A stretch of DNA of 52,626 bases from an uncultured Spirochaetota bacterium (GTDB taxonomy: Bacteria; Spirochaetota; Brachyspiria; Brachyspirales; Brachyspiraceae). The notes beneath the pieces were generated by a model, which saw only the letters and a program-made list of their open reading frames with translations, had not been told where the DNA came from and made no database searches. Shown piece after piece: positions 12,377-49,593 of this stretch; position 1 is the first letter of the stretch; the number at the start of each line of letters is the position of its first letter. Both the position numbers and the translations under genes were made by a program. The stretch covers positions 1 through 52,626 of the forward strand of contig CALXQJ010000018.1 in the NCBI GenBank assembly GCA_944390575.1. The letters run 5' to 3'.

Positions 12377-13136
12377 ATGAAAAAACTCTTGATTATTACT
12401 TTAATATTTACAAGCTCACTTTATTCACAAATTACTAAGTTTGAATTTGATTCTTCTATTGGTATAGGCTTTCCAATAGAATTTATGAAGCAAAAGGGAG
12501 GGCTCTTTGAGAAAGAAGATCCTAATGTACTAAATTTTGGAAATACTTTTAATATTATACTTTTTATAGGAGCTAATACTTCAATATCTAATGATACATT
12601 AAAAAGTATAAGTAGTATGTTTGAAACTGGATATAATGCTTATTTTAGAAATATGAAAAAATATAATAATGCTACTGATTATGAATTTATTAGTTATATT
12701 TATCATAACATTATACTTGGTTATTCATTAAGACTAAACTTTAAAGATGGGCTTTCTTCTTATATAGGTGCAGGCATATATGTTCCTTATATATTTGGTT
12801 TCTGATAAAGCAGATAATTATTTAGGGAAGTTTGGAGGTAAAACATCATTTAGTCATAAAGATATAGCAACTATGCAAAAATTACCATTTATGCCTTATA
12901 TTAAACTAGGTGTTTCAAGATATATAGAGTATAATGATAAAATAGCAAATAAAATAGATATTAATGTGCTTTATAATTTTGGTATGGAATTAGATACAGA
13001 TAGAGTATATGATATTCGCACTGTTGATATATATCGCACCTATAAATATTCTTATCTTTCTATTGAGGTTGCTTATGGTATATCTTTTGGTCGTGGTGAT
13101 AATAGTAAAATGGAGAATGGTATTGCCATTAAATAA
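12377..13136 (+). pseudogene. Frameshifted secreted beta-barrel-like protein
   Basis: An N-terminal piece of 142 residues (12377-12805) has a signal peptide (residues 1-18, ending YSQ) and alternating aromatic strands. It stops just after GAGIYVPY. The sense continues in another frame from about 12790 (SDKADNYLGKFGG...) to 13136 and ends in strand-like sequence with a glycine-rich turn. One extra base, or loss of two, near the TATATATTTGG stretch around 12790-12800 explains the break. The product would be about 250 residues, probably an outer-membrane barrel. AAGGA six bases before the ATG is intact. This may be a true pseudogene, slippage-controlled, or a sequencing error in a TA repeat. Confidence 0.7.
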
Positions 13137-35105: not shown

Positions 35106-35129
35106 GTAAAATAAAAAAAATAGTATAAT

Positions 35130-35178
35130 AAAATCTATAGTTGTATAATTTGTATAAATATACTTCTATAGATTTTTT
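35130..35178 (+). terminator. Terminator of the V-ATPase operon
   Basis: AAAATCTATAG at 35130-35140 pairs with CTATAGATTTT at 35166-35176 across a 25-base loop, which contains a smaller GTATA/TATAC pair. A long T-rich run follows from 35173 to 35187. Confidence 0.8.
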
Positions 35179-35245
35179 ATTTTTTTATCTTAAAAATAAA
35201 AAATATTTATATAATTTTATTTTTCATAAAATATTTTTTTACATA

Positions 35246-35274
35246 TTGCATATTTTTCATAATTTATGTATAAT
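35246..35274 (+). promoter_or_regulatory. Promoter of the envelope protein cluster
   Basis: TTGCAT at 35246-35251, a 17-base spacer, TATAAT at 35269-35274, and the first ATG 24 bases later behind AGGAGG. It lies between the V-ATPase terminator and the first lipoprotein gene, where a new transcript must begin. Confidence 0.75.
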
Positions 35275-35297
35275 AAAGGTTCCTTTAGGAGGTTATT

Positions 35298-35843
35298 ATG
35301 AGAAAAATCTCTTTATATATTATATCTGCTATTATAATCATATTTTCTATTTTATCTTGTACTAAAGATTTTGGAGTGCAAGTGACTCAGCCTAGTAGTG
35401 ATTTCTTTTTAAGTAAAATGCAAAGTGGAAATTGGAGTGGTGCTTCTGTTAATGGTAATACATTAACTATTACAGTAGGAAATGGACTTAATGGAAATTA
35501 TACTTTTGATAGCCCTGTATTAGGTGTTGGAGGAATTTATAAGGGAGAGAATGGAGATATTATTCTTGCTGTTCCTGGTCCTGATGGTTTAGTTGTATCT
35601 AAGACAGACGAAAAAGGGAAAGAAGCTTTAGATGCTATTCTTGAAGTTGTTGGTGAAGAAGGTGGTGAGAAAGTTATTTCTAATCTTGTTGGACAAGTTT
35701 CTAGTAGTGGTGGAAATATAGATTTGAGTAATCCTGATAAAATATTAGCTGGTACAGATTTACCTCCAGATAAACGTGCGGAAGTCGAGGCTATTTTACA
35801 AAACTCTAATGGTAGTTTCAAAGGCGGGCAGACTATTAAGTAA
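35298..35843 (+). CDS. Gly-rich lipoprotein
   Basis: 181 residues. A signal peptide ends in a lipobox (FSILSC) with acylated C21. The mature part is rich in Gly, Asn and Ser, with strand-like repeats in the first half (NGNTLTITVGNGLNGNYTF) and an acidic helical second half. I recognise no family. AGGAGG lies seven bases before the ATG, a strong site. It heads a run of seven same-strand envelope genes, and the next starts two bases after its stop. The lgt gene needed for its acylation ends the run. Confidence 0.8.
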   Translation: MRKISLYIISAIIIIFSILSCTKDFGVQVTQPSSDFFLSKMQSGNWSGASVNGNTLTITVGNGLNGNYTFDSPVLGVGGIYKGENGDIILAVPGPDGLVVSKTDEKGKEALDAILEVVGEEGGEKVISNLVGQVSSSGGNIDLSNPDKILAGTDLPPDKRAEVEAILQNSNGSFKGGQTIK

Positions 35844-35845
35844 TT

Positions 35846-36751
35846 ATGAAAGCTAAAAATATAATATTAACTTCTATATTATTTGTATTTATTAATATAT
35901 CATTATTATATACTCAATCATCAAATAGTAATGATTCTTGGATTACTGGTAGACAGATGGTTAGCGTAAACCTTAATCCTGGTTATGCTATTTGGGGTGG
36001 AATGTTATTAAATACCGTTGTTAATAATGGTGTAGATATTAGTAAACTTGTAGGTGTAAACTTTGGTGAAGTAGCTAATTATTTTAATTATATGAATGCT
36101 AAAACTACTTCTTGGTATATACCTTCTGTTTCATACTCCTTATTTGTTCATGATAGAATTGCTGTAGAAGCAGGTCTTGGTTTCTATTCTAGTACATTTG
36201 ATTTAGTTATTTCAAAAGAAAATACTATTAAACTTTTGGAGTCTATGAGTAGTGTTCCTGCTGGTGCTGAATCTTTAATAGGAATAGATACAACTTTTAA
36301 ATCTTCATTTTATTATTTGCCACTTACTTTTGGAGTTAAATTTTATACAGAAGATAGAAAATTTTATAATATTTTTAAGTTTGGACTTGATTCAGTTTTT
36401 TATACTATAGATACACTAAATGGTGTTACAGGTGTTAAAACTTCTCATACTATATATGATGGTGCTGTTTATGTTTCTTATGAGTTCGGATGGAGTATAG
36501 AGTTGTTTCCTACAAGAAATTGGGATGTAAAACCAACTATTGATATTTCTTTATTAGAAATAGGATATTACTTTAGACCTTGGCATCAAACAGCTTATAA
36601 TGCTATATACGATAACTTAGGTCTATTAACTTCAGGGCTTTTAGATAATTTACCTATTCCTTCTTGGGATAAATTACCTGAGTTTGTTAGAACTTATTCT
36701 AGAATAAGATTTGCATTATTCCCAAGAATAGGGTTTAGTTTGAGATTTTAA
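35846..36751 (+). CDS. Outer-membrane beta-barrel-like protein
   Basis: 301 residues with a signal peptide (about 1-24, ending LLYTQS). The mature part shows alternating aromatic/polar strands and ends in FPRIGFSLRF, a C-terminal aromatic residue as in barrels inserted by BamA. The segment NWDVKPTIDISLLEIGYYF is shared with the next gene (NWPVAPFIDISLLDIGYSF), so the two are paralogs. Only two bases separate it from the lipoprotein gene, with coupling likely. The function of the barrel is unknown. Confidence 0.75.
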   Translation: MKAKNIILTSILFVFINISLLYTQSSNSNDSWITGRQMVSVNLNPGYAIWGGMLLNTVVNNGVDISKLVGVNFGEVANYFNYMNAKTTSWYIPSVSYSLFVHDRIAVEAGLGFYSSTFDLVISKENTIKLLESMSSVPAGAESLIGIDTTFKSSFYYLPLTFGVKFYTEDRKFYNIFKFGLDSVFYTIDTLNGVTGVKTSHTIYDGAVYVSYEFGWSIELFPTRNWDVKPTIDISLLEIGYYFRPWHQTAYNAIYDNLGLLTSGLLDNLPIPSWDKLPEFVRTYSRIRFALFPRIGFSLRF

Positions 36752-36769
36752 GTAGGGTTTATAGATTTT

Positions 36770-37459
36770 ATGAGAAATAAATTAATTATCTTAATAATAA
36801 TGATTAGTTCATTATGTTTATATACGCAAGATTATCCAAAACACTCTACAGGTATAGATTTTGGTACTACTTTATTTTCTACTGTTACATTACCTTTAAT
36901 AAGTGATACTGTATTTAAACCTAAAGAAGGAGCAGCAGGAAAAGTATTAGATGGAAAATATGGTATTCGATTAACATATAATTATGCTTATTTACCAACT
37001 CAAGCTTTGGATCTTTCTATAGGTGTTTATGGTTTTGATACTCATTATGGTGATAATGAACCTGTAAAAAATGATATTGGAGAAATTATTGCTTCTGGTA
37101 TATCTAAAGAAATGCATAATGGTTCTATATTTGCAATTCCTGCTTCTATTGGTGTGAGATTTTATTTTAATAAAGAAAATAAACCTAATGGTTTCTTTCT
37201 GCTCCCAAAGCTTGGATTTACTGCTATGATTATAAATGCTAAAAATTTAGATGAAAATAATAATGCTTCGTATAAAACTACATCAGTTACCGATTTTTAC
37301 ATAGCAGGAGAACTTGGTTGGAAAATAGACTTATTTCATGAGAATAATTGGCCTGTTGCACCTTTTATAGATATTTCTTTACTTGATATAGGGTATTCAT
37401 TTACTCACTTTATAAGGTTTGTTCCCTTACCAAGAATTGCTGTTGGACTTTATTTTTAA
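36770..37459 (+). CDS. Outer-membrane beta-barrel-like protein, paralog of the preceding gene
   Basis: 229 residues with a signal peptide (about 1-19, ending LYTQD). Shorter than its neighbour but with the same C-terminal block: ELGWKIDLFHENNWPV, then FIDISLLDIGY and PRIAVGLYF at the end. It lacks part of the middle strands of the longer paralog. It starts 18 bases after the previous stop and is followed after 21 bases by the next barrel gene, all on one strand. Confidence 0.75.
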   Translation: MRNKLIILIIMISSLCLYTQDYPKHSTGIDFGTTLFSTVTLPLISDTVFKPKEGAAGKVLDGKYGIRLTYNYAYLPTQALDLSIGVYGFDTHYGDNEPVKNDIGEIIASGISKEMHNGSIFAIPASIGVRFYFNKENKPNGFFLLPKLGFTAMIINAKNLDENNNASYKTTSVTDFYIAGELGWKIDLFHENNWPVAPFIDISLLDIGYSFTHFIRFVPLPRIAVGLYF

Positions 37460-37480
37460 TATTATTAAGGTTTATGTTTT

Positions 37481-38164
37481 ATGAAGAGATGCTTTTTTAT
37501 TATATCATTAATTATTGCTGTTAGTTTTAATACTTTATTTTCTTTTGATAATGGACTATATTTAGCTCCTAAATTTATTTTTAATATGGATGATACTCGT
37601 AAGAAAAATGATAAAAATGAGAATATTATAAATAAATATATAGGTGGTGGTCTTTCTTTTGGATATGATTTTTATAAATCTCCATTATTAGTACCTGTGA
37701 GATTGGATCTTGAGTATGTATATAGAGAGGGTATGGCTGGAAACTACTATACAGATTCTTCTTTGGTTAGAATTAATACGCATACTCTTTTGGCTTCTGT
37801 GTATTATAGTTTTCATATTTTCTATATTGATAAAAATAATTTATCTACTTTAACTGCTGATGATATTTATACTATGAGACCTGTTACTTCTTTCTATCTT
37901 GGACTACTTCTTGGTGGAAAGTTTAATGATCATGTTTCTGATAGATGGTATGAAGATGGAGGTAATATTTCTGTTACAAAAGTTGAGACTAAACCTACTT
38001 TTTCTATAGGGCTTGGTACTGGATTTGATTTTCAATTATCTAGTTATCTTAATTTAGATATAGGATATAGGCTTTTATATGGTCTTGATAATGTATTATC
38101 TCATGAAATAGCTGTTGCCTTTAGAGTAAAATTTCCAAAGTTATGGGATCAAGAGAATCTATGA
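37481..38164 (+). CDS. Outer-membrane beta-barrel-like protein, second paralog pair
   Basis: 227 residues with a signal peptide (about 1-21, ending LFSFDN). Block GGGLSFGYDFYKSPLLVPVR is matched by GAGFALGYDFFRVTRLVPLR in the gene at 38375, and both share DIGYR near the end, so they are paralogs. The arrangement of strands (about eight) suggests a small barrel of the OmpW/OmpA-like size. The ATG of the next gene overlaps its stop (ATGA), a translational coupling. Confidence 0.75.
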   Translation: MKRCFFIISLIIAVSFNTLFSFDNGLYLAPKFIFNMDDTRKKNDKNENIINKYIGGGLSFGYDFYKSPLLVPVRLDLEYVYREGMAGNYYTDSSLVRINTHTLLASVYYSFHIFYIDKNNLSTLTADDIYTMRPVTSFYLGLLLGGKFNDHVSDRWYEDGGNISVTKVETKPTFSIGLGTGFDFQLSSYLNLDIGYRLLYGLDNVLSHEIAVAFRVKFPKLWDQENL

Positions 38165-38382
38165 ATAAGTTATTGATATTACTATTTACTATTTTTGTAC
38201 TATTTCTTATATCGTGTAAAACTACAACTATAGTGGTTGTTCCTATTCCAAATGTGAATATTCCTATATATCCACCACAGGAAGTTAGTAGTAATAAAAT
38301 GAGTTATAATACTAATTATCATAATTATTTTGCTTATTCTCATTTTATAGAAATAAGTAATGGGAGGAAGAATTATGAATAA
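38161..38382 (+). CDS. Small lipoprotein
   Basis: 73 residues. The signal peptide ends in a lipobox (LFLISC) with C19. The mature part is only 55 residues: TTTIVVVPIPNVNIPIYPP, then an Asn/Tyr-rich stretch. Its start overlaps the stop of the barrel gene before it, and its stop overlaps the start of the barrel gene after it by eight bases. It may therefore be made in fixed ratio with them and could be a lipoprotein partner of the barrels. No family recognised. Confidence 0.75.
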   Translation: MNKLLILLFTIFVLFLISCKTTTIVVVPIPNVNIPIYPPQEVSSNKMSYNTNYHNYFAYSHFIEISNGRKNYE

Positions 38383-38998
38383 GCGTTATATTATAATTTG
38401 TTTTTTATTATTAATCTCTTCTATTAATTTTTTATTTGCTGGACCTTTTTCTGGTGCTTATATTACTCCTAAATTAAATTATAAAAATGAAGTATTAAAT
38501 AAAACTAATAATGTTGAGCTTGGTAAGTTGCCTGATCTTGATAAGAATAATTATGTGGGAGCTGGTTTTGCTTTAGGGTATGATTTCTTTAGGGTGACTA
38601 GACTTGTTCCACTTAGAATAGATTTTGAGTATATGTTTGATTATAATTTATCTAAAAATCAATCTTTTATGCAAAGCTTTCTTGGAAATATTTATTATGA
38701 TATTAATATATTTTTTCTCAATAATGATGAGCTTGATGTTGTAACTTCTAAGAGTTTATTTAATAGAAATCCTAATATGACTATTTATATTGGCCTTGCA
38801 TTTGGTAATAGACTTTATCAGAGTATTGAGAATAAATATTTACTTAATAGAAGCTCTATTATGTATGGTGTTAATACTGGTATTACTTATAATGTTAATG
38901 ACTGGTTTGCTATAGATATAGGATATAGATATTTAAAAGGTTTTGGATTTAGAGAATCTCATGATGTTTTATTTGGTACGAGATTTACTTTATTATAA
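38375..38998 (+). CDS. Outer-membrane beta-barrel-like protein, paralog of the gene at 37481
   Basis: 207 residues from the ATG at 38375, which has GGGAGG nine bases upstream. An in-frame start at 38360 would have none. The signal peptide is about 1-21 (ending LFAGP). Strand pattern and blocks match the paralog at 37481 (YITPKLNY, GYDFF, LVPLRIDFEY, DIGYRYLKG), and it ends in FGTRFTLL. It overlaps the small lipoprotein gene before it and is followed after 26 bases by an OmpA-type lipoprotein. Confidence 0.75.
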   Translation: MNKRYIIICFLLLISSINFLFAGPFSGAYITPKLNYKNEVLNKTNNVELGKLPDLDKNNYVGAGFALGYDFFRVTRLVPLRIDFEYMFDYNLSKNQSFMQSFLGNIYYDINIFFLNNDELDVVTSKSLFNRNPNMTIYIGLAFGNRLYQSIENKYLLNRSSIMYGVNTGITYNVNDWFAIDIGYRYLKGFGFRESHDVLFGTRFTLL

Positions 38999-39024
38999 TA
39001 TCTTGAAGGATGATATATTTTCTT

Positions 39025-39657
39025 ATGAAGAAGTTAATAATATTTTCTATTTTTTCTTTTGTTCTATTATCTTGTAGCACTACAGATGATTATATTGTTG
39101 TACTGACATTCTCAAAGCAATTACATACTACTATTTATGATAGTAATCCATCATCTGCTAAAAACTCTAAAGAAGATAATACAAAAAATAATAGAAATAA
39201 CAACAATAATAATAATAGACCTTCTTCTTCTTCTAGAGTTGTAAATGAAGGTAGAGAGAAGGTATTAAATATAAATAGCAGAATATACTTTGACTTTAAT
39301 TCATATGAACTTAGAGATGATAGTAAGCCTGCTCTTGATGATGTTTATAATTATTTAGTTAGAAATAAGAATCATATTCTCATTATAGAGGGAGATGCTG
39401 ATTCTTCTGGTGATTATTATTATAATATTTATTTATCAGAAATGCGTGCTCGTGCTATAGCATCATATCTAAACTCTAAAAATATAGAGAAAAATAGATT
39501 AAAATATATTGGATTTGGTTCTACAAAAGTAGAAGGTAGATCTCGTAGAGACTCTCGATCTGCTCGTTTTGTTGTTGTAAATAACAATGAGGATTTAAAT
39601 AGATATAGAGCAAAAAATGAGAGTGGGGACTTTATTAAAGTTCGAGGTTTATATTAA
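39025..39657 (+). CDS. OmpA/Pal-type peptidoglycan-binding lipoprotein
   Basis: 210 residues. The signal peptide ends in a lipobox (FVLLSC) with C17, then an Asn/Ser linker of about 50 residues. The C-terminal OmpA-like domain has IYFDFNSYELRDDS, the GDADSSG loop and LSEMRARAIASYL, where D and R residues bind the peptidoglycan stem peptide. It should tie the outer membrane to the wall. I prefer the ATG at 39025, giving a normal MKK signal start. The ATG at 39010 lies inside the ribosome site GAAGGA, but both are possible. It is the last lipoprotein before lgt. Confidence 0.82.
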   Translation: MKKLIIFSIFSFVLLSCSTTDDYIVVLTFSKQLHTTIYDSNPSSAKNSKEDNTKNNRNNNNNNNRPSSSSRVVNEGREKVLNINSRIYFDFNSYELRDDSKPALDDVYNYLVRNKNHILIIEGDADSSGDYYYNIYLSEMRARAIASYLNSKNIEKNRLKYIGFGSTKVEGRSRRDSRSARFVVVNNNEDLNRYRAKNESGDFIKVRGLY

Positions 39658-39737
39658 TTATTTTAACTGTTTGCTTTTTTTATAGTTTTAGTTAGATAAA
39701 ATAATAATTTTTACAAATAAAAAGGAATAATATAATT

Positions 39738-40643
39738 ATGAAGTATCCTGAGTTTTTAACACCTTTTGTATTTCCAAGAGATATACCTTTACTTGGTTCT
39801 ATAAGATGGTATGGACTTATGTATATAGTTGGTATATTACTTGGATGTGTTATTTTATACTTTGTGAAGCAAAAGGGGTATATAAAATATAATGAAGATA
39901 GTAATGGCAATGGTGGTGTTAATGATATGGTATTTTATGCTGCTGTTGGTGCTATAGTTGGTGGAAGACTTGGGTATTTTTTATTTTATTCACCTATGAC
40001 ATTTTTAACTCCTTGGGAAATATTAGGCTTTTACTTTGATAATGGTATTAAGTTTATAGGCTTTTCTGGTATGTCATTTCATGGTGGTTTTATAGGAATG
40101 ATTATATCTTTATTTATATTTAGTAAGAAATTTCACTATGAGTTTTATGATATAGCAGATCATATAACTTTGCCTGCTTCTATAGCATTGTTTTTTGGAA
40201 GAATTGGAAACTTTATGAATGCTGAGCTTTATGGTAGAATTACTGATTCTTTTATAGGGTTACAATTTCCTTTGTATGATTCTGTTGGTGGATATGATGC
40301 TTGGGTTAGTATGTTTCCTGCTATTAGACCATATACTGAGAGTAGACATCCTTCACAGTTATATGAGGCTTTTTTAGAAGGACTTGTTCTTGCATTAGTG
40401 TCTTATTTGATAATGGTAATTTCTAAGAATAATAAAAATATTAGAAAGGGTACTCGTTTATGGGTATGGGTTATTCTTTATGGTGTGTTTAGAGCATTGA
40501 TAGAGCAGTTTGCAAGAGATGTTACTGAGTGGAATATTGGTGTTATTACTTCTGGGGCTATATATTCTATGTGTATGATTATATTAGGTAGTGTAATGCT
40601 TACTATTATTTATAATAAAAAAGATTCTAACAAGAAGGCTTGA
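39738..40643 (+). CDS. lgt: Prolipoprotein diacylglyceryl transferase
   Basis: 301 residues with seven membrane helices. Lgt moves diacylglycerol from phosphatidylglycerol to the lipobox cysteine. Signature GRIGNFMNAELYGRITD is present near residues 155-171, FHGG with the conserved histidine is near 115, and SRHPSQLYEA is in the C-terminal third. The ATG at 39738 follows AAAGGA. Its stop TGA shares bases with the ATG of the next gene. It directly follows three lipoprotein genes that need it, although it must serve the whole cell. Confidence 0.96.
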   Translation: MKYPEFLTPFVFPRDIPLLGSIRWYGLMYIVGILLGCVILYFVKQKGYIKYNEDSNGNGGVNDMVFYAAVGAIVGGRLGYFLFYSPMTFLTPWEILGFYFDNGIKFIGFSGMSFHGGFIGMIISLFIFSKKFHYEFYDIADHITLPASIALFFGRIGNFMNAELYGRITDSFIGLQFPLYDSVGGYDAWVSMFPAIRPYTESRHPSQLYEAFLEGLVLALVSYLIMVISKNNKNIRKGTRLWVWVILYGVFRALIEQFARDVTEWNIGVITSGAIYSMCMIILGSVMLTIIYNKKDSNKKA

Positions 40644-41380
40644 TGGTTAATACTATATTTCAAAGTAAATTATTAATAGGAATAATTTCTTATGTTGTTT
40701 TTATAATATCTGCAAGCACTCATGAATACTCGCATGCAAGAGCTTCTTATGAGCTTGGTGATAAGACAGCAAGAGATTTAGGTAGATTAACATTAAATCC
40801 ATTAGCTCACATAGATATTTTTGGTACTGTTATTTTACCTATTATAGCTATATTTACTGGTATACCTTTAATAGGATTTATGAAAGCAGTGCCTGTAAAC
40901 TCGTATAATTTAAAAAATAGAGAAAGAGATCAAGCTATAATTGCATTTGCAGGACCTTTTTCAAATCTTATAATTGCAATTATTGCTTTTATAATTATTA
41001 AAGTCGCTACATTAAAAATAGATGGTACTTTTTTGATTTATAAATTTATTATTCTTCTACAAGAAAATAATAATATTATTACAAGCATTTTATTAAATTT
41101 TATTCCTGTTTTATTATCATTTTTAATTATGTTTTATATTATTAATATAATGCTTATGTTTTTTAACTTGCTACCTTTTACACCACTTGATGGAGGTTGG
41201 ATACTTAGATTTTTACTTTCAGATAGTAAAAGAGTAATATACGATAAAATATACCCTTATGGTTTTTTAATTCTTTATGCTTTATTATTTGCGGGTATAC
41301 TTGGAACTATTTTTGATTTTATCTATAGTATAGCTAATAGTTTTTTAGGCGATTCATTTAAGGTTATACTTTCTCTCTAA
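40643..41380 (+). CDS. Site-2-type membrane zinc protease (M50 family)
   Basis: 245 residues with about five or six membrane helices. HEYSH at 27-31 gives the two histidine ligands and the catalytic glutamate. The third ligand is D in FNLLPFTPLDGG, the family motif. There is no PDZ domain, so it belongs to the short group of bacterial S2P homologs. Substrates are unknown; intramembrane cutting of membrane or signal proteins is the family function. The start ATG at 40643 overlaps the lgt stop (TGATG). It meets the barrel gene on the other strand with a four-base overlap of ends. Confidence 0.88.
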   Translation: MVNTIFQSKLLIGIISYVVFIISASTHEYSHARASYELGDKTARDLGRLTLNPLAHIDIFGTVILPIIAIFTGIPLIGFMKAVPVNSYNLKNRERDQAIIAFAGPFSNLIIAIIAFIIIKVATLKIDGTFLIYKFIILLQENNNIITSILLNFIPVLLSFLIMFYIINIMLMFFNLLPFTPLDGGWILRFLLSDSKRVIYDKIYPYGFLILYALLFAGILGTIFDFIYSIANSFLGDSFKVILSL

Positions 41381-42306
41381 TTATTATTATTATCTTGATT
41401 ATTAGTTTTTGGTGCTATCTTAAAACTCCAAAACTCCCAGCTTGGTGTATAGAAATTGTATTCTATAGAAAATGTAAATGTTGCCGTGTTTGGAGCGTTA
41501 CCACTACCAAGTACTATTTTCTTAAATGATGTAGTCATAGTGAGGAAATTACCAACTTCAGCTTTGAATTTAACAAAAGGTTCTAAGTATGTCATATCAT
41601 CAACTTGAGGATTATAAGGAAATACATAACTTACACCTGTATATAGGTTTATAAATGGAGATGTAATAAATTCTAAAGCTCCAATAATTTCTCCATACTT
41701 TAATATATCTTGAGGATTAGTTCTTGTATCAAATTTATAGTTAAAGATAAAGTTTATAGGAATAACTTTAGGAATACCAGCAAGCATTATAGTAGTATAA
41801 AAATTAAAAGGTACAGTCTCATTTGTAATTGTATTATACTGAATAACATCCTTTTTAAAAGAATAATTAAATCCAGTTTTTACAGCAATAGCTAAATACC
41901 AATCTAAAAGATTTACCTTTGCATCTACACTAATAGAGTCAAATGAAAAACCGTCATTTTTATTTGTAGCTCTTGTAATATCATTTCTATATTCTTCAAG
42001 CTGATATATAAAACTAGTGGCAGTTTTTACTTCTATAAACCTTAAAGGTCTTATAGTAAAATATGGTGCAAATCTAAAAATAGTATCTCTTTTATTAATA
42101 TTTTCATTATATGGATATAGTGTATAAAGCTTATCATCTCTAAACCAAGCATTATATTCATTTAATACCCCTTCAAGTCCTACAGAAAAAGCTGTATCTT
42201 TTTCTATAAGAGGAGAAATATCAAGGCTATAATCATTTAATGTTGTAGCAAGAGATACTCTCTGTATTATTATTAGTAGTAGTATAACTATAATATACTT
42301 ATTCAT
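41377..42306 (-). CDS. Outer-membrane beta-barrel-like protein
   Basis: 309 residues with a signal peptide (about 1-20, ending VSLAT). The mature protein has repeated amphipathic strands (FRFAPYFTIRP, FIEVKTATSFIY, LAIAVKTGFNYSF) as in an outer-membrane barrel. The last 15 residues are Asn-rich, which hides the usual aromatic end. It lies nine bases after the SurA-like chaperone gene in the same transcript, so it may be a client or partner. No family recognised. Confidence 0.68.
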   Translation of the reverse strand: MNKYIIVILLLIIIQRVSLATTLNDYSLDISPLIEKDTAFSVGLEGVLNEYNAWFRDDKLYTLYPYNENINKRDTIFRFAPYFTIRPLRFIEVKTATSFIYQLEEYRNDITRATNKNDGFSFDSISVDAKVNLLDWYLAIAVKTGFNYSFKKDVIQYNTITNETVPFNFYTTIMLAGIPKVIPINFIFNYKFDTRTNPQDILKYGEIIGALEFITSPFINLYTGVSYVFPYNPQVDDMTYLEPFVKFKAEVGNFLTMTTSFKKIVLGSGNAPNTATFTFSIEYNFYTPSWEFWSFKIAPKTNNQDNNNN

Positions 42307-46506: not shown

Positions 46507-48322
46507 CTATATATCTAATGCAGCGTAAAGCCCACCATATACCGCATTTGTTATAGTAGATACTTTTAAAGCATCTCCAATTACTCTAACAAAAGGCACA
46601 CTATCCAATAATTGCTCTGCTATATGAGAATTAGATTTTTGTCCTAATGCACATATAACACTTGTACCTTTTATTAATACTTCATTTCCATCTTTATCAA
46701 TACATACTATACCATCTTTTCTAACTTCTATTCCCTTATGTGAAGTATGAACAGTAACATACTTTTCTACTTCTTTTAGTAAAAGAGGTCTATGTCGTAC
46801 ATTAGCATCAATAGCAAGTTCATCTCTCATTTCTATAAGATGTACTCTTTTCCCTTCCATTCCTAAGTGTATAGCACATTCACATCCAGCTAAACCACCA
46901 CCAAATACAATAACATCATCAGTGACTTTTTCTTTTTCTATATATTCTTTATTTACTTCTGTATTTAATCTTATTTCTACTCCTTCTATTCTAGCCATAC
47001 GCTCATAAGTATGAGAAAGTTCATACATTTCTTTTTTGAAAGGTAATGCCTGTTCACTAACTAATATACCACCAAGCTCAGCTTCTTTTTCGCATAATAC
47101 TACATTATGTCCTCTTTTAGCAGCAGTTAATGAAGCATATAGTCCACCAGGACCACCACCTACTACTAATACATTTTTTTTGTAATTCGATTTTATAACT
47201 TCTACACCATCTAATTCTCTTCCAATAATAGGATTTACAGTACATCTTCTAGTAGCAGTATTTGCTCTTTCTGCCATACAAGTAAAACATCTTAAACAAT
47301 AAACTATTTCATCATCTTTATTTTGCATTACTTTTTTTGGTAATTCATTATCTGCAAGAAGTGCACGTGCCATATAAACTATATCAGCTTTTCCAGATGC
47401 TATTATTTCTTCCATTTGATCTGGACTATTTAAAGCTCCTATTGTAGCTACTGGTATAGAAATATGCTTTTTGATTTCTTCAGCTAAATAAACATTGCAA
47501 CCATGTTCTTTAAACATTGAAGGGTGAGTATCGCCAAATCCTCTTTGATATGTTCCAGCTGATACGTGTAATAAGTCTATATATGGTTCTATTTGTTTTG
47601 CTATTTGAATGCCTTCATCTAATTCATATCCTCCTTCAAATAGCTCACTACCACTAAGTCTAAATTCTATAGGGAAATTGCTACCAACTGCATTACGAAC
47701 AGATTGTAGAACTTCTATCGCTAATCTACATCTATTTTCTAAATTTCCACCATACTCATCTGTTCTTTTGTTAAAATAAGGAGATAAGAATTGATTAATA
47801 AGCCATCCATGTCCTCCATGTATTAAAATCATTCCAAATCCAGCTCTTTTTGCTAAAGCTGCAACATTGCCATAAGCTTCTACAATTTCTTTTATCATAT
47901 CTTTAGTTAATTGTTTAACTTCAATGCCATCATTTCTAATAGTATCAGAAGGTCCCCATATTTTTATCTGTCATATATGTACCTGCATACATACCAGAAT
48001 GCGATAGTTCTAAGCTTGCTACAGAACCGTGTCTACTAATTGCATCTGCAGTATATGCAGCAGCTGCTAATGAATTTAATATTTTTGTATCTAAATGATA
48101 TGCATGTGAACCATCTGTTTCTGGATGTACCATACACTCACTTACAGTAACAGCTCCAGCTCCTCCTCTTGCTCTTAGTTCATAAAAAGCTGTAGATTTT
48201 ACTCCAATACATCCATCATTTGTTATATCAGTACCACCCATAGGTGCAGAAAACATTCTGTTTTGAAATACTGTTCCTGCTATTTTTATAGGGCTACATA
48301 AGTGCGGATATTTTCTTTTCAT
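46507..48322 (-). pseudogene. Frameshifted NADH:flavin oxidoreductase (dienoyl-CoA reductase/BaiCD-like)
   Basis: The first 125 residues (48322-47945) form the start of an old-yellow-enzyme barrel (SAPMGG..., SLELSHSGMYAG) and stop at TGA after a frameshift. From about 47965 the sense continues in the next frame (WGPSDTIRNDGIEV...) and stays open to 46507. One extra A in the A5 run at 47961-47965 (T5 on the plus strand) explains it. The rest has HGGHGWLINQFLSP..RTDEYGG, the iron-sulphur cysteines C..C..C in CLRCFTCM plus a later C, and an FAD loop VVGGGPGGLYA, about 604 residues in all. Related enzymes reduce enoyl or bile-acid double bonds. AAGGAG before the ATG is intact. It may be a true pseudogene, phase variation or a base-calling error. 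Confidence 0.85.
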
Positions 48323-48352: not shown

Positions 48353-49593
48353 TTATACTTCTTTTGTTTTTTTATTTACAAGAAGATGATATATAAATGC
48401 AAAAGCTATACCAGCTATATTTAAAATAGATGCTATTATAAATGCACTGTGATAACTACCATTTTTATTAAATATTGTAGTCATTATTGTAGGACCAAAA
48501 TATCCTGCTAATGCAAAACCTATAAACATTATTCCATAATTTACACTATTATTTTTACTTCCAAATTGTTCTCGGTAAATCCTGGAAATATACCCATAAA
48601 TGCTCCAAAACAAAATCCTACTATAGATGTTCCTAAATAGAATATATATACATTTTCTATGCTCGATTTGTATATCAGTAAAAGTCCTATTATTGATAAT
48701 ACACAAGATAATGATAGTGTTCTTACTTTTCCTATTTTGTCAGATATATAACCTGCTAATATTCTTCCTAAAACATTAAATAATTATAATACCGATATAA
48801 CACTGCTTGCAGCTATTGCACTCATACCAACCATATTTCTTGCAACAGCTGATGCTTGAGAAATTATCATCATTCCAGAAAAAGCACCACAAGTAAGTAG
48901 TATTAACATTATATAGAATATAGGACTTGATAACATTTCTTTCCAATTCTTATTTGTAGTATTATTATTTGATTTGATGTTTGGAGGAGTCCATCCATCT
49001 GGAACAAAATTATCAGGACATTTTTCCATAAAGAAAGATGAACCTACAATTATAACTGTAAATACTATTCCTACTATTTTAAAAGTAGTGCTAACATCAA
49101 ACTTATTTACAAGAACTATAATAATAGGAGGTAGTATAACAGAACCAAGACCATATACTGCTGTTGTAATTCCTCCTATTAATCCTCTTTTATCTGGAAA
49201 AAATTTTTGACAAGTGTTTATTAATGCTCCATATCCCATTCCAAGTCCAAGCCCACCTATTAGACCATAAGATATGATTAAAAATGTTACACTATTTGCA
49301 AATCCAGATATAAACATGCCAAGTCCCCACATAATACCACTTATAAATATGATGCTTTTAGACCCAAACTTATCATTAAACCAACCCCCACTTATCATAG
49401 TTATAGGTCCTACACTGTTTGCTATTGTGTATACTATTGCTAAATCTGCTGTTGTTAATAAAGTACCCTTAATTGCTGATAGATGTTCAGCCATAGATGA
49501 TGCAAATATACTCCATGTATAAATAGAGCCAAAACAAAGATTTGCTATACAAGATACTATTAAAATTAACCATCTCTTTTTTGTTAAATTCAT
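48353..49593 (-). pseudogene. Broken MFS transporter (oxalate/formate antiporter family)
   Basis: The first 269 residues (49593-48784) are the N-terminal half of an OFA-type major facilitator: GSIYTWSIF, GGWFNDKFGSKSI, then GGLGLGMGYGA. TAA at 48784-48786 interrupts the frame, which continues unchanged with LFNVLGRILAGYISDKIGK. A second break comes near 48577: TENNLEV should read T-A-EQFGSKNNSVNYG, and loss of one base in ACCG(C)AGAA explains it. The final piece runs to 48353 with GIMFIGFALAGYFGP. Two independent lesions make a true pseudogene very likely. It stood first in an operon with the flavin reductase, divergent from the PadR gene. Confidence 0.88.

Follow-up and report, generated by a model that had tools for sequence, protein, structure and literature searches.

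What might fix the outer membrane of a spirochete to its cell wall is the question raised by a run of seven envelope genes, O1 to O7, in a stretch of Brachyspira DNA. The outer membrane of spirochetes is thought to be loosely held. For this reason, and because Treponema pallidum is described in the available text as having no bipartite OmpA (PMC8407342), the fixing of membrane to wall is a fair question. The window analysed is a stretch of 52,626 nucleotides (nt) from an uncultured member of the Brachyspiraceae (contig CALXQJ010000018.1 of assembly GCA_944390575.1). A first-pass annotation of the window had read the run as two pairs of paralogous barrels with three lipoproteins behind one promoter, and had proposed that the smallest lipoprotein forms a fixed-ratio complex with the barrels. 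The seven envelope genes are a real, conserved unit. Their likeliest function, put forward tentatively, is that of an outer-membrane module with a "split OmpA", in which the barrel and the peptidoglycan-binding half are encoded by separate genes and would together act as a peptidoglycan tether.

Gene content and conservation

The seven genes are as follows.

35298-35843, plus strand: O1, predicted lipoprotein of 181 residues, lipobox ILSC (by reading)
35846-36751, plus strand: O2, predicted outer-membrane barrel of 301 residues, eight strands (AlphaFold), C-terminal Phe
36770-37459, plus strand: O3, paralogue of O2, 229 residues, C-terminal Phe, barrel by homology
37481-38164, plus strand: O4, predicted outer-membrane barrel of 227 residues, paralogue of O6 (homology, family tree)
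38161-38382, plus strand: O5, predicted lipoprotein of 73 residues, lipid-proximal motif TTTIVVVPIPNVNIPIYPPQ resembling that of relatives, 8-nt overlap with O6
38375-38998, plus strand: O6, predicted outer-membrane barrel of 207 residues, eight strands, NspA/OmpA-like (AlphaFold, structure matches, Pfam)
39025-39657, plus strand: O7, predicted lipoprotein with an OmpA-type C-terminal domain (PF00691, E 1.6e-17), D(x)7NxxLSxxR intact

The run is followed on the same strand by lgt and an M50-family protease gene, so that nine genes fall within 35298-41380, with successive spacings from O1 to the protease of 2, 18, 21, -4, -8, 26, 80 and -1 nt. O6 and O7 each have an alternative in-frame ATG 15 nt upstream, and the starts used here agree with those of relatives. 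As read from the sequence, O1, O5 and O7 begin with lipobox-type N-termini that include the Cys, which is invariant in the 15 aligned rows of O5 and the 15 of O7, and all three are probably lipidated; O2, O3, O4 and O6 carry ordinary signal peptides. Paralogy stands well above shuffled sequences for both O2/O3 (z 18) and O4/O6 (z 30). The first-pass reading of two barrel pairs and three lipoproteins, all in one direction with gaps of -8 to 26 nt from O1 to O7, is therefore borne out.

The comparison set consisted of 26 genomes of the genus Brachyspira, including that of the window. Conservation of gene order across the genus had been named as a check on the first-pass annotation, and the order O1-O2-O3-O4-O5-O6-O7 (cluster A) was found in 15 of the 26, counting the window and one genome, G020, whose contig terminates inside O7. 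Close O6 orthologues (E 2e-66 or better) occur in precisely those 15 genomes. The chromosomal setting of the block differs between genomes. Of the ten relatives listed, eight have a hisI-like gene upstream, followed further out by rpsL-rpsG-fusA in six of them (names assigned by eye), and the remaining two (G008 and G016) have only O1-O2-O3; in the window, the block is flanked by an apparent V-type ATPase operon and lgt. In G002, the O6 orthologue (L096) has one internal TAA, and the remaining six cluster genes are called full-length.

Members of the O2 family are present in all 26 genomes, the O6 profile likewise matches all 26, and O1, for which no Pfam or NCBIfam family match was found, has homologues in 25 in a search that covered the genus. 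Outside the genus, in 270 further genomes of the phylum, the O6 profile gave only two weak, partial matches (E 1e-4 and 8e-4, to long open frames), and a scan of the collection with O6 gave one Desulfuromonadales match at 25% identity. The O2 profile has partial matches in two genomes of the same family, each from a different genus outside Brachyspira (E 7e-16 and 9e-13). The source organism is a deep-branching Brachyspira: its genome has the longest branch in a tree of lgt and the M50 gene, with G001 nearest, and at 2.0 Mb is the smallest of the set (2.5-3.4 Mb for the others). That tree holds 23 of the 26 genomes, with G003, G011 and G023 omitted given that their genes are partial.

Barrels and a separate OmpA-type lipoprotein

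The AlphaFold models of O2 (pLDDT, the per-residue confidence score, 76.9; pTM, the predicted template modelling score, 0.66) and O6 (pLDDT 85.2, pTM 0.75) are each a single eight-stranded barrel following the signal sequence; O3 and O4 are assigned to the same class by homology only. The best structure match of the O6 model is NspA (1p4t; Z 20.3, root-mean-square deviation (rmsd) 2.2, 147 residues aligned), followed by OmpA (1qjp; Z 18.4, rmsd 2.1, 133 aligned), OprF (Z 18.4, rmsd 2.2, 132 aligned) and OmpW (Z 17.4, rmsd 2.5, 148 aligned). The O2 model matches OprF (Z 14.8, rmsd 2.4, 130 aligned), CarO and OmpA more weakly, and resembles OmpW barrels as well. These matches to predicted models indicate fold and not function. 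Neither O6 (18.4 bits) nor O4 (13.7 bits) reaches the cut-off of 28.7 for OMP_b-brl (PF13505), a family that is matched at E 0.01 or better by 23 of 32 members of the barrel family. The joint O4/O6 profile (alignment A3, which includes eight O4 rows and omits L154 for the same internal stop as L096) has weak matches in the PDB to NspA and Opa60 (E 0.002-0.005). Alignment A1 omits L096, for its internal O6 stop, and 10 of the 26 copies from locus B, described below.

The C-terminal domain of O7 scores 64.1 bits against PF00691, for which the curated cut-off is 27.2. The motif TD(x)7NxxLSxxRA, in which D, N and R are critical for peptidoglycan binding, is set out in the available text of PMC5104382. 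The Asp, Asn and Arg of this motif are invariant in 15 of 15 O7 rows, 13 from cluster A and two from a second type of locus, D; position one of the motif varies between T, S and A, and the two D-type rows have S at its final position. This alignment (A5) omits L102, whose N-terminus is out of frame, and L107, which is cut by a contig end. Among the 25 families listed of the 33 matched in NCBIfam, O7 is under the cut-off in every one, including its best match, the YiaD family (NF053611, 75 bits against 175), and Pal (TIGR02802, 60.2 against 125.35). A bipartite OmpA carries barrel and OmpA domain on one polypeptide. O6 stops after the barrel and the OmpA domain is on O7, and of six proteins with an OmpA domain that were found in the window's genome, not one reads as a single chain of barrel and OmpA domain. 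On contig C10 of G000, two adjoining genes for OmpA-domain lipoproteins (62469-63296) form a further candidate tether pair.

In the mechanism that is tentatively proposed, O2/O3 and O4/O6 would be small single-domain barrels inserted in the outer membrane, and O1, O5 and O7 would be lipoproteins. O6 (together with O4) and O7 would each supply one half of a split OmpA, with the barrel in the outer membrane. O7 would be held by its lipid in the same membrane while its OmpA-type domain grips peptidoglycan, and would dock on the turns that the barrels expose to the periplasm, such that the outer membrane is tethered to the cell wall. O5 might be an accessory lipoprotein in the same assembly.

Paralogous operons and the periplasmic turns

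The barrels also occur in loci of other composition. Locus B holds the barrels O2-O3-O4-O6 in all 26 genomes, with neither O5 nor O7, and has a co-directional O1 in front in 23; O1 was not found at locus B of the window's genome (contig C3) or of G003, and in G001 it is divergent. Triads of O1-O2-O3 occur in eight genomes (L140-L144, plus L101, L103 and L104, which belong to the same tree group). Fragments of such a triad in G004 (L145, 4938-5818) represent a decayed copy. Locus D is a stand-alone O6-O7 pair in G001 and G003, without O1-O5 there, and its copies are deeply diverged. The O2 and O3 families fall on opposite sides of a branch with support 100*, in a tree that omits fragments of 150 residues or less; A and B copies are found on each side, which places the duplication that gave O2 and O3 before that of A and B. 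The split between O4 and O6 has a tree support of only 89 and is unresolved once turn columns are removed.

Two predicted turns were compared between these groups: T1 at 71-79 and T2 at 113-134 in the numbering of the window's O6, with the register taken from the structure alignment and the turns chosen after the alignment had been viewed. NspA and OmpA have a periplasmic N-terminus, which puts T1 and T2 on the periplasmic side if O6 is alike. Both turns are alike among the barrel groups of operons that carry O7, and unlike in B. When A_O4, A_O6 and D_O6 are compared with one another (three pairings), the ratio of identity in T2 to identity in the strands comes to 0.94-1.09; in all seven pairings with a B group it lies at 0.24-0.55. 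Positions 116-135 are the top 20-residue segment of the barrel, and the mean for T1 and T2 was reached by 3 of 177 rotations. The similarity of the turns may thus be a lead to a docking site for O7, and is not proof of one.

Locus B has a neighbour of its own. A homologue of the BspA-type leucine-rich repeat (LRR) family LRR_5 follows the last B barrel at a distance of up to 1.8 kb, on the same strand, in 20 of the 26 genomes (for example L114, 4798-5616); the assignment is backed by Pfam in two, and the homologue at L132 is a fragment of 51 residues. It was not seen in six genomes: five of these belong to B. pilosicoli or to its group in the trees (with 400 nt visible at L127), and in the sixth the locus (L117) stops at a contig end. 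One could picture the four-barrel operon as a chassis on which the terminal lipoprotein has been swapped, an OmpA lipoprotein in A and a BspA-type LRR protein in B, with the barrel turns changed along with the partner. We regard this as rather unlikely; if true, a single spirochete would maintain two barrel scaffolds in parallel, of which the first is anchored to the wall and the second displays a surface lipoprotein.

The small lipoprotein O5

Lack of conservation would have counted against the small lipoprotein, and O5 proves to be conserved. Orthologues (E 2e-8 or better) occur in exactly the 15 cluster-A genomes, the O5 profile recovers the same 15 with one weak match outside the genus (E 6e-4), and in all 15 copies of the cluster O5 is flanked by O4 and O6. 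The median ratio of nonsynonymous to synonymous substitution rates (dN/dS) is 0.38 for O5 over 78 pairs of relatives (78 of 91 pairs being usable), 0.12-0.13 for the barrels, 0.29 for O1 and 0.26 for O7. These values indicate that O5 is a real gene under purifying selection that is looser than that on the barrels, O1 and O7.

The overlaps of O5 with barrel genes on both sides, which the first-pass annotation took as a sign of a fixed ratio, are present in the window (-4 and -8 nt), but do not hold as such a sign. Every one of the 14 relatives has an O5 that terminates in FVYLK, with exactly 12 nt between its stop codon and the start of O6, and this DNA spacing is kept even at L096 despite the internal stop in the O6 frame. 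The spacing of O4 and O5 in relatives is merely close, at 3 to 6 nt, or -4 in six from an upstream start. The window's O5 retains the lipid-proximal motif, has a different sequence in place of the FVYLK end, and continues in frame 8 nt into O6. One of the other frames has a stop 14 nt before O6, as expected after a frameshift, and the third frame has stops at 18 and 24 nt; for this reason the tail looks frameshifted, with an assembly error as the alternative. The O5/O6 overlap was accordingly rejected as a conserved coupling device, given that the window copy reads past the gap of its relatives.

A derivation of O5 as a stripped copy of the lipid-proximal segment of O7 is unsupported. A probability of 62% from hhalign on the whole alignments fell away when the signal peptides were cut, as 36 of 100 column shuffles then scored as high. 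Pairwise comparison of O5 gave z 1.6-3.7 for two D-type O7 and below 0.5 for the two A-type O7 tried.

Promoter and neighbouring genes

Features outside the unit are as follows.

35246-35274, plus strand: candidate promoter, TTGCAT-17 nt-TATAAT, read by eye, then AGGAGG at 35287-35292
39738-40643, plus strand: lgt, prolipoprotein diacylglyceryl transferase (TIGR00544, E 2.5e-51)
40643-41380, plus strand, from ATG: M50-family membrane protease of the site-2 protease (S2P) type (PF02163, E 9.8e-16), HEYSH motif

The claim of a single promoter did not find support. A scan for consensus promoters and terminators gave no site in 35106-35297, and 53 sites across the region against 58.6 in shuffled sequence, leaving the site at 35246-35274 as a plausible candidate picked out by eye.

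Both enzymes are what the first-pass annotation had named: Lgt scores 174.7 against the TIGR00544 cut-off of 118.9 and is also recognized by Pfam, and the M50 protease is identified by Pfam. Each gene is present in 26 of 26 genomes. That the run ends beside lgt is true here, 80 nt after O7. Cluster genes lie within 1.5 kb of lgt in the window's genome only, and in none of the other 14 cluster-A genomes; therefore closeness to lgt is not a feature of the system, and a functional linkage of lgt and protease to the cluster was rejected. The two are adjacent to each other in 3 of 26 genomes (G000, G001 and G003), bearing in mind that some lgt loci are shortened at contig ends; in the remaining genomes M50 is placed on other contigs or far off. 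The M50 gene adjoins cluster A in three genomes, on the upstream side before O1 in G002 and G020. Both genes seem to be unrelated neighbours, and the lgt adjacency coincidental.

Beyond M50, a gene on the minus strand of the window (41377-42306) encodes a secreted 309-residue protein without a family match, and adjoins M50 here, in G002 and in G020. In the single-contig genome of G011, lgt is in two pieces (L085/L087), with stops in one. Three further split frames were seen by eye in the window. Two overlapping plus-strand open reading frames (ORFs) at 12377-13136 resemble a single secreted, barrel-like protein interrupted by a break in the frame, two adjoining minus-strand ORFs at 46507-48322 resemble a split flavin oxidoreductase of the old-yellow-enzyme type, and two minus-strand ORFs at 48353-49593 resemble a single major facilitator superfamily transporter in two pieces.

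Weighing the alternatives

The main rival is that the barrels are host-facing or small-molecule-transport surface proteins of the OmpW, OprG or Opa kind, present as tandem duplicates, with lipoproteins that are merely co-transcribed and form no complex. This is a real possibility, ranked behind the tether. The models match NspA, OmpW, CarO, Ail and Opa, the weak profile matches noted above are to sequences of this kind, paralogue groups differ in the predicted external loops more than in most other parts, and operon copies multiply and are absent in places. A link between barrel and lipoprotein is argued by the presence of O5 and O7 with O4/O6 in all 15 cluster-A copies, and of O6-O7 alone in two genomes. 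The latter pair, without O5, also makes O7 a likelier partner of the barrels than O5. The proposal that O5 is the key subunit, held in fixed ratio with the flanking barrels through translational coupling at overlapping ends, draws on its constant place between O4 and O6, a C-terminus conserved in 14 relatives and the dN/dS of 0.38; given that the O6 overlap is private with a frameshift-like tail, and that loci B and D hold barrels without O5, we consider it quite improbable. The idea that lgt and the S2P-type protease act on the adjoining lipoproteins, which would make the cluster a neighbourhood for lipoprotein biogenesis, fits the placement of both genes directly after O7 in the window, yet its genus-wide form is contradicted by the position of lgt in the other 14 cluster-A genomes, by the rarity of lgt-M50 adjacency and by M50 upstream of O1 in two genomes, which makes it very improbable.

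Several observations weigh against the split-OmpA tether itself. The OmpA_membrane match of O6 is marginal and covers a partial profile (21.4 bits against a cut-off of 21), and this family is matched by only 5 of 32 barrel family members. Four of the six OmpA-domain matches in the window's genome read as lipoproteins, so that O7 is not the sole candidate tether. In G009 (L102, 10498-11261), the O7 frame has no signal peptide and begins 131 nt after O6, for which reason its N-terminus looks out of frame. The D group consists of two genomes only. With the T1 and T2 columns removed, a clade of A_O4, A_O6 and D_O6 is not rejected by the approximately unbiased (AU) test (p-AU 0.47), and therefore the similarity of the turns may be plain ancestry; the AU tests omitted four long rows of the window's genome. 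In that genome itself, T2 identity between O4 and O6 (0.18) is below that of the strands (0.29), with T1 at 0.44. The evidence of the turns for docking is weakened because common descent is allowed and the window's own genome shows the pattern poorly.

An operon common to many Brachyspira, in which small barrels are accompanied by a lipoprotein with an intact peptidoglycan-binding motif, points to specific proteins, and to residues in two of the turns, as candidates for such a tether. The cluster also defines a family of predicted surface barrels, and its genus includes pathogens of the human and the pig gut.

Comparison with known systems

The operon is not named in the titles or abstract openings of the literature searched, a scope that does not extend to subscription papers and supplements. 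Cluster A is like OmpA in that the fold of the O6 barrel is close and O7 has an OmpA-type domain with an intact motif, and unlike it in that the halves are on two genes, the second for a predicted lipoprotein, and are accompanied in all by four barrels and two further lipoproteins. The eight-stranded surface proteins NspA and Opa of Neisseria provide the best structure match to O6 and weak profile matches, at an identity of about 20%. We know of no operon with lipoproteins in the NspA/Opa family. O7 resembles OmpA lipoproteins of the Pal and YiaD type as a predicted lipoprotein with PF00691, and differs in lying under the family cut-offs and within a barrel operon.

Within the genus, Vsp/Bhmp39 is likewise a family of outer-membrane protein genes, in the portions available of PMC2897892 and PMC5415613. 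Its members are of about 39 kDa (PMC2897892), compared with 207-301 residues for the cluster barrels, a distinction drawn from the descriptions. The available text of PMC2897892 also gives a PAL gene, BHWA1_02111, in B. hyodysenteriae that is absent from B. pilosicoli. This distribution would fit that of O7. A Pal with an OmpA-like domain is reported from B. pilosicoli in the available part of PMC11444514, a paper that also describes Brachyspira as not having been open to genetic manipulation so far.

A parallel among spirochetes is T. pallidum, for which the available text of PMC8407342 describes separate single-domain eight-stranded barrels (TP0126, TP0479, TP0698 and TP0733) and the OmpA-like proteins TP0624 and TP0292. 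Both are thus spirochetes with barrels and OmpA-like proteins apart. In T. pallidum no operon that unites the halves is described in that text (PMC8407342), whereas in cluster A they stand side by side; and TP0624, according to the available text of PMC5104382, is without the binding Asp that O7 retains.

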